From Dehalococcoidia bacterium (GTDB taxonomy: Bacteria > Chloroflexota > Dehalococcoidia > Lucifugimonadales > UBA3495), in NCBI GenBank assembly GCA_022827095.1, contig JAJDTP010000005.1, forward strand, positions 310,001 through 374,000: 64,000 nt of DNA, written 5' to 3'. Below, one piece after another: positions 8,142 through 30,944 of this stretch. Position 1 is the first letter of the stretch. The number at the start of each line of letters is the position of its first letter. The translations under genes were made by a program, and so were the position numbers. The notes under the pieces were generated by a model. That model saw only the letters and a program-made list of their open reading frames with translations. It was not told the origin of the DNA and made no database searches.

Positions 8142-9989
8142 CTATCTCGCCTGGTTGGGATTGCGCCGATGAGTGGCGGAGTCGAGGACGCCGTTGAGCA
8201 TCTCGGTGACCTCACTGACGCGGGCGGAGATGCCGGTCGCTACGTCCTTGCTGCCGCTGTCGGCCCGTTCGGCGTAAACCCGCAGCGCCTCCGAGGTTTC
8301 GTTGATCCTCACCCGCAGGTTGTCCATGAAGTCCGAGCCCATATTGGACAGGGGTTGGCTGACGGAACGGAGGGTGTCGGCCAGTTCAGTCACGTGCTGA
8401 TTGAGGCTCTCGCCGAGTTCTTTGCCGGCCTGTTCAACCTGGTGGGACCAGTTGCGCATGGTCTCGGTGGTCTCGGACAGGTCCTGCACGCTGCGGGCCT
8501 GCCGGAGGCGATAGTTTCCGAGGATGCGGAAGATCCGGCCGTAGAGAGCGTCAATGGAGGTGAGTTTGGCGCTGTATTTGTCGAAGAGCTCGCGGCTCTC
8601 GGCCATGTTCCAGCGGTCGTCTTCGTGGACGAACTGGCGGCCGGTGTAGAGTTCGTAGGGCCGCATCTCGCCTTCCTGCAGGGGCTCGCCGTTGGCGCTC
8701 AGGGGCTTCAGGTCCCAGTTGGACGTGGCGGGCAGCGGGGTGAGCAGGTTGGCAGTCTGGTACCGGCTGTGCTGGGTGACCCAGTCGGCTAGGGTCATGA
8801 TGGATTCCTCGGTGTCGTAAGGCAGGCCTATGATGGTCATGGCGACGACGGAGAAACCCTTTTCGTTGAGGTGGACCAGGTCCTTCTGCATCTGGCCGGG
8901 TTCCTGGCGCTTGCGCACGGCGGCGAGGCTCTCGGCGTTGTTGGACTCGACGCCGAGGTAGAGCATCTTCACGTTGGCGTCCAGCAGAGCGTCGGCCAAC
9001 TCGTCATCCTGACCGATCTCCGCGCGGGCTTGGCAGATCATGTTCATGGAGTCGGTACGGCCGGCCCAGCCCTTGAGGCGTTCGAGGCGCTCGTTCCGGA
9101 ACTTGACGGCCCGCAGCGGAGGGGTGTGTAAGTCGTCCGAGATGAAGACGTTGAACTTACCGTTGCGACCGGTATGGATCAGACCGTCGGCGGCGAGTTC
9201 TTCCAGCTGCTCGATGCGCTTGAACTCCGTTTCGCGTTCGATAAGGCGGTAGCCGAGGAACTGCTGGATGACCTGGCAGTAGGAGCAGTTTTCGGTGCAG
9301 CCGCGCACGGTCTCCAGGACGCCGCCGGCCATGGGGTTCATGGGCGACAGGCCGCGGATCGACCGGAAGTCGGGCAGGGGCACGAAGTCGGGGGCGACGA
9401 GGCCCTTGCGGCGGGTCTGGGTCACATGCCCGTCACGCATGAAGGAGATGCCGGCGACGCGTTCGAGGTACCGGTACTTGCGGTCGTCGCGGAAGGTGAG
9501 CAGGATGTCGCAGAGCTGGCCGATGATGTCTTCGCCCTCGCGATTGACGATGGCGTCGAAGCCGCCGCGGGCGATGGCCTCTTCGGGCAAGGGGCTCATC
9601 TGGGGCCCGCCGCCGAGGATCACAAGTTCGGGATGGAATTCGCGGGCCTGACGGGCGAGTTCGTAGGCGCGCGGGGTCTCATTGATGAGAGAAGTGATCA
9701 TCAGGACGTCGATGTCGTCGAGGTCCTTATCGGGGTCCATGCGACCCAAACGGTCTTCGAACCAGATATCCCGTTCGTAGACGTAGGGGCCTTTCCACTG
9801 GGCGAGGGCTCCAGAGAGGAACAACATGCCCTGCCGGGGAATGGCAATATATTCGAAGTTGCCACCCGCCGACGCAGGCTGGACCATCATAACCCGCCTG
9901 GTACGGTCACCCTGGAGCTGAATGGAAACGGGCGACTGGGTAGCGGGGGTACCGTCGAACTTAGTATCGAGCAGTTCAATAATGCTCAT
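8142..9989 (-). CDS. B12-binding-domain radical SAM protein with a helical C-terminal tail
   Basis: 615 residues in three parts. Residues 30-165 resemble a cobalamin-binding Rossmann domain (DVLMITSLINETPRA, LVILGGGPQMS). Residues 215-500 form a radical SAM domain with the 4Fe-4S motif RGCTENCSYC (Cys231, 235, 238). From about residue 505 to the end lies a low-complexity amphipathic helical region (SVQDLSETTETM..., ...SEVTEMLNGVLDS) with heptad-like spacing and no cysteine, resembling a phasin or coiled-coil tail. Substrate unknown; methylation or carbon-skeleton chemistry would be typical. It has its own promoter with a palindrome and precedes fabF by 9 bases, hinting at lipid-linked chemistry (inference). 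A BtuF-like gene lies 2 kb upstream. Confidence 0.85.
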   Translation of the reverse strand: MSIIELLDTKFDGTPATQSPVSIQLQGDRTRRVMMVQPASAGGNFEYIAIPRQGMLFLSGALAQWKGPYVYERDIWFEDRLGRMDPDKDLDDIDVLMITSLINETPRAYELARQAREFHPELVILGGGPQMSPLPEEAIARGGFDAIVNREGEDIIGQLCDILLTFRDDRKYRYLERVAGISFMRDGHVTQTRRKGLVAPDFVPLPDFRSIRGLSPMNPMAGGVLETVRGCTENCSYCQVIQQFLGYRLIERETEFKRIEQLEELAADGLIHTGRNGKFNVFISDDLHTPPLRAVKFRNERLERLKGWAGRTDSMNMICQARAEIGQDDELADALLDANVKMLYLGVESNNAESLAAVRKRQEPGQMQKDLVHLNEKGFSVVAMTIIGLPYDTEESIMTLADWVTQHSRYQTANLLTPLPATSNWDLKPLSANGEPLQEGEMRPYELYTGRQFVHEDDRWNMAESRELFDKYSAKLTSIDALYGRIFRILGNYRLRQARSVQDLSETTETMRNWSHQVEQAGKELGESLNQHVTELADTLRSVSQPLSNMGSDFMDNLRVRINETSEALRVYAERADSGSKDVATGISARVSEVTEMLNGVLDSATHRRNPNQAR

Positions 9990-22975: not shown

Positions 22976-23004
22976 ATGACGTGAGGACTGCGAGGAGCGC
23001 CAAC

Positions 23005-24246
23005 ATGATCACATCGCTGCGGCTCAGGAACTTCAAAAACTTTGCGGACGAGACGCTGAAGCTGGGGCCGTTCACGGTGATCGTGGGGGCTAACGCCAGC
23101 GGGAAGAGCAACATACGCGACGCTTTTCGGTTTCTGCACGGGATCGGGCGAGGGTACACGCTGGCGGAGATTATTGGAGGGAAGGTGGGCGTTGGCGGGC
23201 AGCTGGAATGGGAGCCGATTAGGGGCGCGCCCAACGAGATAGTTCGCATGTTCGACGGATCTAACGAGGAGATAGGCGAATTCTATGTGAGGTTGAGCGT
23301 GCGCACCGGCGGGAAAAATATGGATTATTCCTGCACAGTTGGAATAAACCCGGACGGGAAAGACGGTTTTCGGCTGTTGACAGAAATGATGATGGCTGAG
23401 AATCAGCCGATATTTGGGATGGTGAATTCCGAACAAGAATGGCGCTACATGCAGGAAGTCAGACCGGCGTTGGCGCGGCCGCTCGATCACGATCCGATAA
23501 GCGAGGATCAGCGCTCCTGTCTTTGTTCTTCTATCCAGAGTATGCGTTTCCTAGAACTGTCGCCGGCGCGGATGCGAGAGCCTTCCGTGCCGGGAGCCAC
23601 CATCCTAGGCGACTACGGCCAGAACCTGCCCACGGTGCTGGAAGCGATTTGCGCTGACGCCGACCGCAAGCAAACGCTGCTTTCGTGGTTCGAGGAACTG
23701 ACGCCGATGGACGTGCAAGGTTTTGAGTTCCCGCGAGACCCCAGCGGCCGGGTGCATCTGTACATTACGGAGCGCAACGGGCGCAAGGTGTCGGCCTACA
23801 GCGCGTCGGACGGGACGCTGCGGTTCCTGGGGTTACTGGCGGCGCTACTGAATGATGATGCCGGCGGCATTTATTTCTTTGAGAAAATTGACAACGGCAT
23901 CCACCCCAGCCGGCTGTGGCTGCTGCTGGACTTGATCGAACGGCAGACGGCGAAGGGGAAGATACAGGTGATCACCACCACCCACTCGCCGGCCCTGCTG
24001 GCCTGGATGAATGACGATACCTTTGAGCACACGTCGGTGGTGTATCGCGATCAATACTGGTCGGACAGCGTGATACGGCACATCGCCGACCTGTATCGCC
24101 TGAGAGAGTTGAGAAAGTCCTACGGGCTGGAACGCCTGCTCACCAACGGCTGGCTGGAAGACGCGATGAAAGCATCTGAAGGAGACGCCGACACCGATCA
24201 TCTGGATGATGACGACGAGGATGGTTGGGGGATGGAGGAAGAATGA
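23005..24246 (+). CDS. AAA_21/OLD-type ATPase, first gene of a putative defence module
   Basis: 413 residues starting MITSLRLRNFKNFADETLKL, the usual start of SMC/RecF-like ATPases. Walker A is GANASGKS (28-35). There is an ABC-like signature SDGTLRFLGLLAALL, a Walker B region IYFFEKIDNGIHPSRL, and the H-loop TTTHSPALLAW. In relatives the Walker B acid pair is usually EE (EEIENGIHP); here the second position is Lys, which could change ATP hydrolysis. The C-terminus is very acidic (DADTDHLDDDDEDGW). It overlaps the next gene by ATGA. ATPases of this kind act as sensors in Gabija, PARIS and OLD-type phage defence. Confidence 0.82.
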   Translation: MITSLRLRNFKNFADETLKLGPFTVIVGANASGKSNIRDAFRFLHGIGRGYTLAEIIGGKVGVGGQLEWEPIRGAPNEIVRMFDGSNEEIGEFYVRLSVRTGGKNMDYSCTVGINPDGKDGFRLLTEMMMAENQPIFGMVNSEQEWRYMQEVRPALARPLDHDPISEDQRSCLCSSIQSMRFLELSPARMREPSVPGATILGDYGQNLPTVLEAICADADRKQTLLSWFEELTPMDVQGFEFPRDPSGRVHLYITERNGRKVSAYSASDGTLRFLGLLAALLNDDAGGIYFFEKIDNGIHPSRLWLLLDLIERQTAKGKIQVITTTHSPALLAWMNDDTFEHTSVVYRDQYWSDSVIRHIADLYRLRELRKSYGLERLLTNGWLEDAMKASEGDADTDHLDDDDEDGWGMEEE

Positions 24247-24827
24247 ACGTACTCGTCATTCCCGAAGACTTTCGCAAAGACCAGTACATTATCAAGCCCC
24301 TTTTCACCAGGCTTTTCCGACGCCTTAGTGCGCCTTCGGTGGAGGTTACTATTTGCAGGGACCCGCTGCTTGGCGGAGTTAGCGAAGCCTTGAAATTGGA
24401 ACGCATTGCGGAAATCGTTGACCAGCAAGCGCCTATGCGCGACATACTGGTACTGTGTGTTGATCGGGATGGCGAAGTGGGGCGACGGCAAAGACTCGAT
24501 GACATTGAGGCTGCAATACAAACCCGATTTGGCGACCGGGTGCGCTTCTTTGCCGAAAATGCCTGGGAAGAGCTGGAAACCTGGGTTCTAGCCGGCCTGA
24601 ACCTGCCCGGCAACTGGCGATGGGCGGACTTGCGCGCCGAGATACACGTCAAGGAACAATACTTTGAGCCGTTGGCGGTGCAGCGTGGCGTGGATAATTC
24701 ACAAGGTGGTGGGCGGAAGGCGCTGGCCGAGGAAGCATCGCGCCGTGTCCTGGCCATCCGGCGGAAATGTCCGGAGGATTTCAACGCGCTGGCGGAGCGG
24801 CTGGAAACCGGCATCCAGGCGGCATAA
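24243..24827 (+). CDS. TOPRIM-like partner of the AAA ATPase (DUF4276-like)
   Basis: 194 residues from ATG 24243, overlapping the ATPase stop as ATGA. It opens with MNVLVIPEDF (Glu8 after the first strand) and has DILVLCVDRDGE (Asp74, Asp76, Glu78), the arrangement of TOPRIM metal-binding sites. AENAWEELETWVLAGLNLPGNW follows, like the helix after the TOPRIM core of OLD and DUF4276 proteins. It is probably the nuclease effector of the pair. The fold call is inference from motif order. It is shorter than the AriB (DUF4435) effector of PARIS. Confidence 0.7.
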   Translation: MNVLVIPEDFRKDQYIIKPLFTRLFRRLSAPSVEVTICRDPLLGGVSEALKLERIAEIVDQQAPMRDILVLCVDRDGEVGRRQRLDDIEAAIQTRFGDRVRFFAENAWEELETWVLAGLNLPGNWRWADLRAEIHVKEQYFEPLAVQRGVDNSQGGGRKALAEEASRRVLAIRRKCPEDFNALAERLETGIQAA

Positions 24828-24853: not shown

Positions 24854-24862
24854 TGCTACAAT
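24854..24862 (+). promoter_or_regulatory. Extended -10 promoter of aprB
   Basis: TGC-TACAAT (TG 24854-24855, hexamer 24857-24862). Predicted start about 24869, so the leader begins just before the hairpin at 24884. It shows that aprB has its own transcription unit. Confidence 0.55.
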
Positions 24863-24883
24863 GCGCGGCAGATTTTCGCCGCC

Positions 24884-24906
24884 GGGCGGGTTTGCCCGCC
24901 CATTTT
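24884..24906 (+). promoter_or_regulatory. GC-rich leader hairpin followed by a T-run, before aprB
   Basis: GGGCGGG (24884-24890), loop TTTG, CCCGCCC (24895-24901), then ATTTTG. It sits between the promoter and the GAGGAG binding site of aprB. It may terminate the upstream module or attenuate aprB. Confidence 0.5.
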
Positions 24907-24918
24907 GAGGAGTGATCA

Positions 24919-25359
24919 GTGCCTACATATGTCGATCCGTCCGCCTGCAACGCCTGCGCCGGCGTGCACGGCGGACCCCAGTGCGTCTATATCTGTCCGA
25001 ACGACCTGATGGTGCTGGACGGGATGGTGAACAAGGGCAGCAACCAGGAGCCCGACATGTGCTCCGAGTGCTACGCCTGCGTGAAACTCTGCCCTGAAAA
25101 CGCGATACACGTTCGCGGCTACGCAGACTTCGTTCCGCTGGGGGCCGAGGTGCAGCCTCATTACGAAGGGCAGGACATCGTCTGGGATGTCACGTTCCGC
25201 GACGGCCGGACGGAGCACTTCCGGTTCGCGTCGCGGTCGACGCCGTGGGGGAGCATCGACCCGTACGCGACGGTGGGTCCGGCGGACGCGGACGCGCTGA
25301 GGACGCAGGTTCTGTTCGGGGAACCGGAGTATCTGATGCTGCCTGAGGAGAGCGCCTAG
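24919..25359 (+). CDS. aprB: Adenylylsulfate (APS) reductase beta subunit, no alpha subunit nearby
   Basis: 146 residues from GTG 24919 with a GAGGAG site. MPTYVDPSACNAC, CVYICPNDLMVLD, NQEPDMCSECYACVKLCPENAI, VRGYADFVPLGA and GSIDPYATV are near-exact AprB marks. Two 4Fe-4S clusters are coordinated by Cys10, 13, 22, 26 and Cys48, 51, 54, 58. In the dissimilatory enzyme AprB passes electrons to the FAD of AprA for APS/sulfite interconversion. Neither aprA, sat, qmo nor dsr is within 20 kb on either side, so this is either a separated subunit or an AprB-like ferredoxin reused by another partner. The C-terminal wrap region is short. Confidence 0.85.
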   Translation: MPTYVDPSACNACAGVHGGPQCVYICPNDLMVLDGMVNKGSNQEPDMCSECYACVKLCPENAIHVRGYADFVPLGAEVQPHYEGQDIVWDVTFRDGRTEHFRFASRSTPWGSIDPYATVGPADADALRTQVLFGEPEYLMLPEESA

Positions 25360-29096: not shown

Positions 29097-30944
29097 TTAC
29101 CCGAGGCCGTGTTCGGCGAGGACGGGGCGGATGGCCTCGACCAGGGGAGCCAGGTACTCGTTCCAGTCGCCGACGATCCCGTAGTCGGCGGCGCGGAAGA
29201 TGGCGGCGCGGTGGTTGCGGTTGATGGCAAGGATCACGCCGGCCTTCTGGATGCCCACGGTGTGGTTGAACGCGCCGCGGATTCCAACGGCGAGGTAGAC
29301 CTGGGGGGCGATGGTGCGCCCGCTGATACCCACCTGGATGTGGTGGGGGAGCCAGCCGGAGTGCACGACGTTCCGGGTGGTGCAGATGGACGCCCCGATG
29401 CTGGATGCGAGCTGCTGGGCGGCGGGCACGTTCTCCTCGCCGATGCCCATGCCCAGGCCGACTACGACCTCAGCGGAGGTAAGTTCCAGCGCGCCGTGTT
29501 CTTCCGAGATGTGCTCGTCGATCAGCGCGACGTCGACATCGTCGGTGGGGGAGGCCGGGATGGATTCGACGATGGCCGTGGCGCCGGGTTCTGGAACGCC
29601 GGGAGACAGGACGCCGGGGCGGAGGGTGACCAGGTTGGGAAGGGTTTTCGAGAGGATGGGAGCGACGACGTTGCCGCCGAGGGCCGGCTTGAGCTGGACA
29701 AGCTGGCCGCCGTCGTTGATTTCGAGGTCGATGGCGTCGCCGGTGAGGCCGAGCCGGCGACGGGCGGCAATGCGGGCGGCCAGGTCGCGGCCGTCGGCGG
29801 TGGCGGCGAACAGGATGGCGTACGGTGGTTGTTCGCCGATGGCGTCGGAGAGGGCGCGGGAGACGCCGCGGCCGCAGAGGACGCCGAGGTTCGCCATGTC
29901 CAGGGTGAGGATGCGATCGGCGCCGGCTTCGGCGAGTTGGGTGGTGACATCCGCAGATGGATGGCCGCCCTGGATGACGACGGCGACCACCTCGCTTTGG
30001 GTGATGGGAGTGAGAGCGCGGGCTTTGCCGAGCATTTCCAGAGTCACCTGTCGCACACCGTCAGCGGCCAGTTCAGCAACGACCCAGATGCTGCGGTCAC
30101 CGCCTGAGTAGCGGGGCAACGCGGCGTTTGCGGTGTCAGAACTAGCCTCCGATGCCAAGGAGGTCAGACGCTCCCGAAGGCTGTCCGCGACCTGGCGGGC
30201 CGCGTCCTCGGGAGTCTCGTCGCGGATGACGACGGCGAGGCGGTCGGGCTCGACGAGGCGGATGTCCTCAACCCAGGTGGGGGAACCGTCGAGGCCAAAC
30301 AGGGAGAGGTCGTTGGTCAGGTCGGAGCAGGCGAGCTGTTCGATGCTGCGTTCCTGGGCCTCGGTCATCTCATCGCGGCCGGGATAGCGCTCCTGACCAG
30401 CGCCCTCGGTGACGCAGACGACGGCGGGCAGCGGGCATTCAATGACCTGGTAACCCTCGTCGGTGGCGCGCTCGGCTACGATACGATTGCCGGAGCGGTC
30501 CACGTCCAGTTTGCGGACGTTGCTGATGTGGGGCAGGCCCATGAGCTCGGCGACTTCTGGTCCGACCTGGCCGGTCTCGGCGTCGCTGCTGTTGCGTCCG
30601 CAGACGATGAGATCGGGGGATTCGCGCTGGAGGGCCAGGGCCAGGGCCTGGGCGGTCGCCAGGGTGTCGCTGCCGGCGAGGGCGCGGTCAGAGAGCAGGA
30701 TGCCCCGGTCGGCTCCCAGGGCGTAGCATTGGGTCAGGCCCTCGGCGGCGTTGGGCGGACCCATGGACAAGGCGACGACGGAATCCTCGGCACTGGACTT
30801 GAGGTCGACGGCCATGTTGATGCCGAGCAGGTCGAATGGGTTGATCTCGGAGGGGACGCCCTCGCGCTGGATCACCTTGTTTTCGTAGTCGAACTCGATG
30901 CGGGACACCACGGGGACGAACTTGACGCAGACCGCGATTTTCAT
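29097..30944 (-). CDS. Fused electron transfer flavoprotein (beta-alpha)
   Basis: 615 residues in which an EtfB-like N-terminal half is joined to an EtfA-like C-terminal half. The beta part (1-about 255) has MKIAVCVKFVP, NPFDLLGINMAVDLK, GADRGILLSD, DLIVCGRNSSDAETGQVGPEVAELMGLPHIS. The alpha part (about 285-615) ends in the FAD domain: ISGRTIAPQVYLAVGIRGAF, AGVILAINRN, IFRAADYGIVGDWNEYLAPL. Normally these are two genes; here they are one frame with no internal stop. ETFs carry electrons from acyl-CoA and other dehydrogenases to the quinone pool. It lies 22 bases after pncB and has GGAG before the ATG. Confidence 0.92.
   Translation of the reverse strand: MKIAVCVKFVPVVSRIEFDYENKVIQREGVPSEINPFDLLGINMAVDLKSSAEDSVVALSMGPPNAAEGLTQCYALGADRGILLSDRALAGSDTLATAQALALALQRESPDLIVCGRNSSDAETGQVGPEVAELMGLPHISNVRKLDVDRSGNRIVAERATDEGYQVIECPLPAVVCVTEGAGQERYPGRDEMTEAQERSIEQLACSDLTNDLSLFGLDGSPTWVEDIRLVEPDRLAVVIRDETPEDAARQVADSLRERLTSLASEASSDTANAALPRYSGGDRSIWVVAELAADGVRQVTLEMLGKARALTPITQSEVVAVVIQGGHPSADVTTQLAEAGADRILTLDMANLGVLCGRGVSRALSDAIGEQPPYAILFAATADGRDLAARIAARRRLGLTGDAIDLEINDGGQLVQLKPALGGNVVAPILSKTLPNLVTLRPGVLSPGVPEPGATAIVESIPASPTDDVDVALIDEHISEEHGALELTSAEVVVGLGMGIGEENVPAAQQLASSIGASICTTRNVVHSGWLPHHIQVGISGRTIAPQVYLAVGIRGAFNHTVGIQKAGVILAINRNHRAAIFRAADYGIVGDWNEYLAPLVEAIRPVLAEHGLG

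Follow-up and report, generated by a model that had tools for sequence, protein, structure and literature searches.

Dissimilatory APS reductase (AprBA) of Archaeoglobus fulgidus (1JNR/2FJA) and Desulfovibrio gigas (3GYX) consists of a beta subunit with two [4Fe-4S] clusters and a C-terminal domain and of an alpha subunit that carries FAD. Cluster I lies 12.4 Å from the FAD with a tryptophan in between; this electron-transferring residue, Trp-B48, is described as strictly conserved and as missing only in Pyrobaculum (Meyer and Kuever, PMC2211403). According to the same source, Leu-A278 clamps the adenine together with Arg-A317, and Leu-A70, which A67-A68 adjoin, contacts the flavin (PMC2211403); Leu-A278, too, counts as strictly conserved in published models. 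An AprBA-like enzyme of Methanothermococcus thermolithotrophicus, MtPAPSR (8A8O), reduces PAPS instead; it keeps the tryptophan (Trp42), has Lys120-Arg121-Ser122 and, by alignment, bears Gln at the A278 position. As for Chloroflexota, the gene content of SAR202-type bacteria of the deep ocean has led to the assumption that they oxidise sulfite by means of AprBA, and the available part of the paper by Mehrshad et al. 2017 (PMC5864207) assigns their aprA to a clade of its own, reports sat to be present and dsr absent, and proposes a route from sulfite through APS to sulfate.

The aprB gene that we analysed lies in a window of 64 kb, by which we mean the whole stretch of DNA studied. The AprBA to which it belongs is made of the same subunits as the enzymes of A. 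fulgidus and D. gigas and retains nearly all of their catalytic residues. It differs from them in that its genes lie at separate loci with no qmo or dsr recognised, and in that it has Ser at B48, Gln at A278 and Gly-Glu at A67-A68. With SAR202 it shares the separate aprA clade, the presence of sat and the absence of dsr, whereas split loci and a Trp-B48 substitution are not mentioned in the available part of that paper (PMC5864207). Our reading, which we hold to be very probable, is that AprB serves as a working beta subunit in the sole dissimilatory-type AprBA that this genome encodes, that aprB and aprA first acquired promoters of their own and were then moved apart by a chromosomal rearrangement, and that the enzyme, with a remodelled site, oxidises sulfite.

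Positions 24919-25359 (+) encode a genuine AprB in an intact open reading frame. The frame runs from a GTG start at 24919 to a TAG stop ending at 25359 and encodes 146 aa, which score 159.1 bits against the AprB equivalog profile TIGR02060 (cut-off 135.65) and match the A. fulgidus chain 1jnr_B with E=9e-44, the match extending to residue 139. The cysteines of both clusters (C10, C13, C22, C26, C48, C51, C54 and C58) are all kept and are invariant in the alignment. PF12139, the C-terminal domain that binds AprA, is likewise complete (88.1 bits against a cut-off of 25; positions 1-79 of the 82 in the profile are covered). The earlier note on this DNA had recognised AprB from its sequence, and these matches, together with the eight cysteines, confirm the identity; it had also taken the C-terminal tail to be short, and in this it was mistaken, as the relatives have 145-156 aa and the A. 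fulgidus chain has 150, so that the tail is of ordinary length. An AlphaFold2 model of AprB built from 22 sequences had a mean pLDDT of 56 and was set aside. Elsewhere, an aprB fragment near a contig end (L222, G064:C107) reads CSES at the expected cluster cysteine, which may be a sequencing or assembly error.

Upstream of aprB, an extended -10 element, TGCTACAAT, is located at 24854-24862 (+). The motif TG(C/T)TA(C/T)AAT precedes aprB in the 13 genus members aligned and is absent from the two other genera shown, which agrees with the previous suggestion that the gene has an extended -10 of its own. Just downstream of it there is a putative leader stem-loop, GCGGCAGATTTTCGCCGC, at 24865-24882 (+), for which most genus members have a related GCAGA(C/T)TTTT..GCCGC sequence. 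The leader hairpin described before corresponds to a GC-rich element, GGGCGGGTTTGCCCGCCC, at 24884-24901 (+). It is indeed present, but sequence comparison shows that it varies between genomes and that it has counterparts only in the subclade in which aprB and aprA are split; none was seen in G184, the most basal member of this subclade, or in most unsplit genomes. A predicted ribosome-binding site, GAGGAG, kept in relatives, follows at 24907-24912 (+). Just 5' of aprB, several genus members carry a pair of genes which here encode an AAA ATPase (22984-24243, +), weakly similar to the methylation-associated defence protein MAD3 (81 bits, cut-off 420), and, directly after it, an unclassified protein of 200 aa (24225-24827, +).

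AprB is an orphan within the window, but not within the genome. No match to aprA, sat or the Dsr/NIR_SIR families was found in the 64 kb, and to this extent the term used in the earlier note was correct; the matches of the genome lie on other contigs. The assembly (G000: 3.79 Mb, 35 contigs, 97.65% complete, 4% estimated contamination) has a single aprA (C8:69146-70966, 923 bits against a cut-off of 641.75) and a single sat, on contig C17. Another AprA-like match, on contig C5, was rejected as a second AprA, for it reaches 37 bits, well below the family cut-off, and has an SdhE-like gene about 3 kb away; this match probably represents a flavoprotein of a succinate dehydrogenase/fumarate reductase. 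Contamination of the assembly as the source of aprA was rejected too, on account of an uncultured Dehalococcoidia with a single-contig genome of identical layout (G191, OX638345.1). On this chromosome 410 kb separate aprB from aprA, and the distance from aprB to sat is 1.47 Mb. The neighbourhoods of aprB and aprA in our assembly are each syntenic with it over about 15 kb, at 82-87% identity, and mis-binning is thus an unlikely cause of the split. Among the 250 genomes of the order that were surveyed, aprB occurs in 37 and aprA in 39, and the two are nearly always present together. The search for aprA and sat that had been recommended for this gene has yielded both partners, with an aprA of matching phylogeny, a result that the earlier note had named in advance as the sign of a normal split locus. 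Of the three origins considered at the time (a relic, a split-locus subunit, a recruited ferredoxin), only the split locus has survived.

Several observations suggest that the two subunits work and evolve together. Distances between AprA sequences follow those between AprB sequences; the Mantel r is 0.95 over the lineage (35 genomes) and 0.79 when the genus is taken alone (0 of 2000 permutations in both tests). Pairwise dN/dS is 0.03-0.06, whether the genomes are split or not. Of the 33 genomes of the family that have aprB, 32 also have sat, compared to none of the 17 without aprB (Fisher p=2e-12, uncorrected for relatedness). The catalytic or FAD-binding residues Asn74, Trp234, Arg265, Arg317, Asp361, His398, His446 and Phe448 of AprA are conserved. 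The agreement of the trees, the dN/dS values and the co-occurrence with sat speak against a relic, and equally against a role of AprB with some other enzyme. On one hand, a decaying remnant of a lost sulfur pathway would fit the lack of pathway neighbours in the window and also the loss of Trp-B48, which resembles the situation in Pyrobaculum (Ala there, Ser here), where the enzyme, also devoid of the FAD-binding Asn, was judged non-functional (PMC2211403). On the other hand, decay is contradicted by the low dN/dS, and the eight cysteines of AprB are intact, aprA and sat are both in the genome, and the substitutions are fixed and conserved across 35 genomes; in contrast to the situation in Pyrobaculum, Asn-A74 has been retained in this lineage, on which purifying selection acts. 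We thus regard a relic as extremely improbable.

Scarcely more credible is the idea that AprB has been recruited as a ferredoxin by some other flavoprotein or by an oxygenase, as may be the case for marine phage aprB located beside a Rieske-type oxygenase ORF. The isolation of the aprB locus, a fused EtfB-EtfA gene 4 kb from it and phage contigs with aprB but no nearby aprA could be quoted in its favor. Still, the domain that binds AprA is complete, and the EtfBA gene is on the other strand and is a neighbour of aprB only in split genomes; the presence of one co-evolving AprA and the co-occurrence with sat contradict such a role, and we consider it very unlikely. The EtfB-EtfA gene itself (29100-30944, -) encodes a fused electron transfer flavoprotein of 615 aa and adjoins a probable nicotinate phosphoribosyltransferase gene.

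How the operon came apart can be followed in the relatives, for the genus to which the window belongs preserves intermediate stages of this process. In sister genera sat, aprB and aprA are adjacent, and the cluster is kept together in most of the family. In every member of the window's genus, sat is located away from aprB. The interval between aprB and aprA holds small HEPN/PaREP1-like genes (Pfam HEPN, 24.4 bits), one or several of them. The order is aprB-HEPN-aprA in G190, G187 and G185, with two HEPN copies in G183, and in G192 and G193 the HEPN copies are separated by 3-5 kb of other genes. In the window's genome and in G191, G189 and G181, aprA has a separate locus and is preceded there by the HEPN genes. 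A contig end interrupts aprA in G186, and in the split genome G184 the HEPN genes remained behind aprB. All six genomes with the split group in a single clade (support 85), which amounts to a single change on the tree, although the different side taken by the HEPN genes in G184 leaves room for a second split event. Comparison with unsplit G187 (L098) locates the cut: homology on the aprB side stops at 8374 and on the aprA side starts at 8389, around the aprB stop codon at 8382-8384, and so the cut was made at most about 15 bp from the end of aprB.

An extended -10 of the form TG(C/T)TATACTGCC precedes aprA in most aligned members, including unsplit G190, G187 and G183 and basal G193; it is a variant in G192 and is absent in G188, G185 and G182. 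If aprB and aprA already had separate promoters when the cut occurred, this would account for the tolerance of the split. In the genus, sat was lost from the cluster, HEPN genes and the aprA -10 were gained, and one subclade was cut afterwards. HEPN/PaREP1-like genes multiply between aprB and aprA, and other genes are inserted there (L106:8820-14696, L105:8326-12968, L087:11173-12075); this interval is an apparent rearrangement hot spot of the genus.

The most interesting property of this AprB, overlooked in the earlier note, is the replacement of Trp-B48. The codon at 25063-25065 (+), which aligns with the electron-transfer tryptophan of A. fulgidus, is TCC (Ser49). Serine occupies B48 in 35/35 enzymes of the lineage and tryptophan in 75/75 outside enzymes. 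AprA has changed in a similar manner, with Gln at A278 in all 35 lineage enzymes and in none of the 75 outside ones, which keep Leu, and with Ala-A67 replaced by Gly and Gln/Met-A68 by Glu in 34/34 against 0/74. Of the remaining named active-site residues all are retained but two: Phe-A277, which is Ser in the window's genus and its nearest sister genus, and A141, which is variable in both groups. The outside enzymes, seven of them from other Chloroflexota and the rest from Archaeoglobus, Desulfobacterota, Bacteroidota, Acidobacteria, Nitrospirae and Proteobacteria, are a non-exhaustive sample drawn from the best 80 genome hits and a Chloroflexota survey, and the occurrence of Ser-B48 beyond the order was assessed within these 75. 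The lineage is monophyletic in both the AprA and the AprB tree, the latter made with the diagnostic column left out. In a literature search with limited coverage of subscription journals, a change of Trp-B48 to Ser was nowhere described. The enzyme is most likely an ordinary sulfite-oxidising APS reductase at split loci, though an undescribed variant in its active site.

It is plausible to ask whether such an enzyme might work differently, using another nucleotide or sulfur substrate or another exit for the flavin electrons, so that Trp-B48 and Leu-A278 would not be needed. The changes are fixed at positions that are invariant in all outside enzymes compared, neither Qmo nor Dsr is recognisable in the genome, and Gln is found at the A278 position also in the PAPS-reducing MtPAPSR. 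MtPAPSR combines this Gln with a retained tryptophan, so that the Gln is compatible with an adenine-nucleotide enzyme. However, our lineage, unlike MtPAPSR, keeps Trp-A144, the APS-type residue of the APS channel. It also conserves almost all of the ligands of sulfate and phosphate, and the linkage of the genes to sat, together with their joint occurrence, suggests that APS is the intermediate. A different mode of action is unlikely, though less so than the two origins discussed above. Somewhat better, but still tentative, are the chances that the lineage represents a further functional class of APS reductase, without the tryptophan between FAD and cluster, with a polar adenine clamp, and adapted either to sulfite oxidation in one direction only or to another electron acceptor.

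Under the sulfite-oxidising reading that we prefer, AprB and AprA would be made from distant loci and then assemble, the FAD of AprA would join sulfite with AMP to give APS, and two electrons would leave through clusters I and II of AprB to an acceptor. Sat would then convert APS and PPi to sulfate and ATP. The electrons would have to reach cluster I from FAD by tunnelling with no tryptophan on the way, in an environment remodelled at B48, A278 and A67-A68. Direct tunnelling over a gap of 12.4 Å is possible in principle, and the loss of Trp-B48 need not abolish activity for this reason. If the enzyme does lack the residue held to pass electrons between FAD and the clusters, then either the tryptophan can be done without, and the accepted electron path is put to the test, or the physiology assumed for these bacteria has to be checked. 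This applies to a lineage which we take to belong to SAR202, apparently with sponge-living relatives.

Regarding the direction of the reaction, DsrAB was not found in the genome, whose NIR_SIR matches are NirA-like single-chain siroheme reductases; together with the available part of the SAR202 paper (PMC5864207), this points to sulfite oxidation. No Qmo was recognisable among the CCG-domain proteins, which resemble GlcF, LdhH-like, SdhE and GlpC types. A long Fe-S protein with two CCG domains (L231, G000:C5:554256-554894, ORF of 699 aa) is a possible electron-transfer protein and a candidate partner for either ETF or AprBA.

The gene is found on viral contigs as well. We noted aprB on 21 of them (IMG/VR, L187-L207; for example L194:2192-4528 and L188:2974-4576), with the usual tryptophan where it was read. 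No aprA was found within about 3 kb of these genes, nor anywhere in the eight whole records searched, and tblastn against named phages gave no match; one aprB of a vent virus has already been reported (PMC12043954). Viral aprB without aprA makes a phage orphan worth separate study. In L194 the gene comes after that for a T4-like gp15 tail sheath stabiliser, and in the three viral contigs checked an ORF with a Rieske-oxygenase catalytic domain (PF00848) is located at or near the 3' side of aprB.
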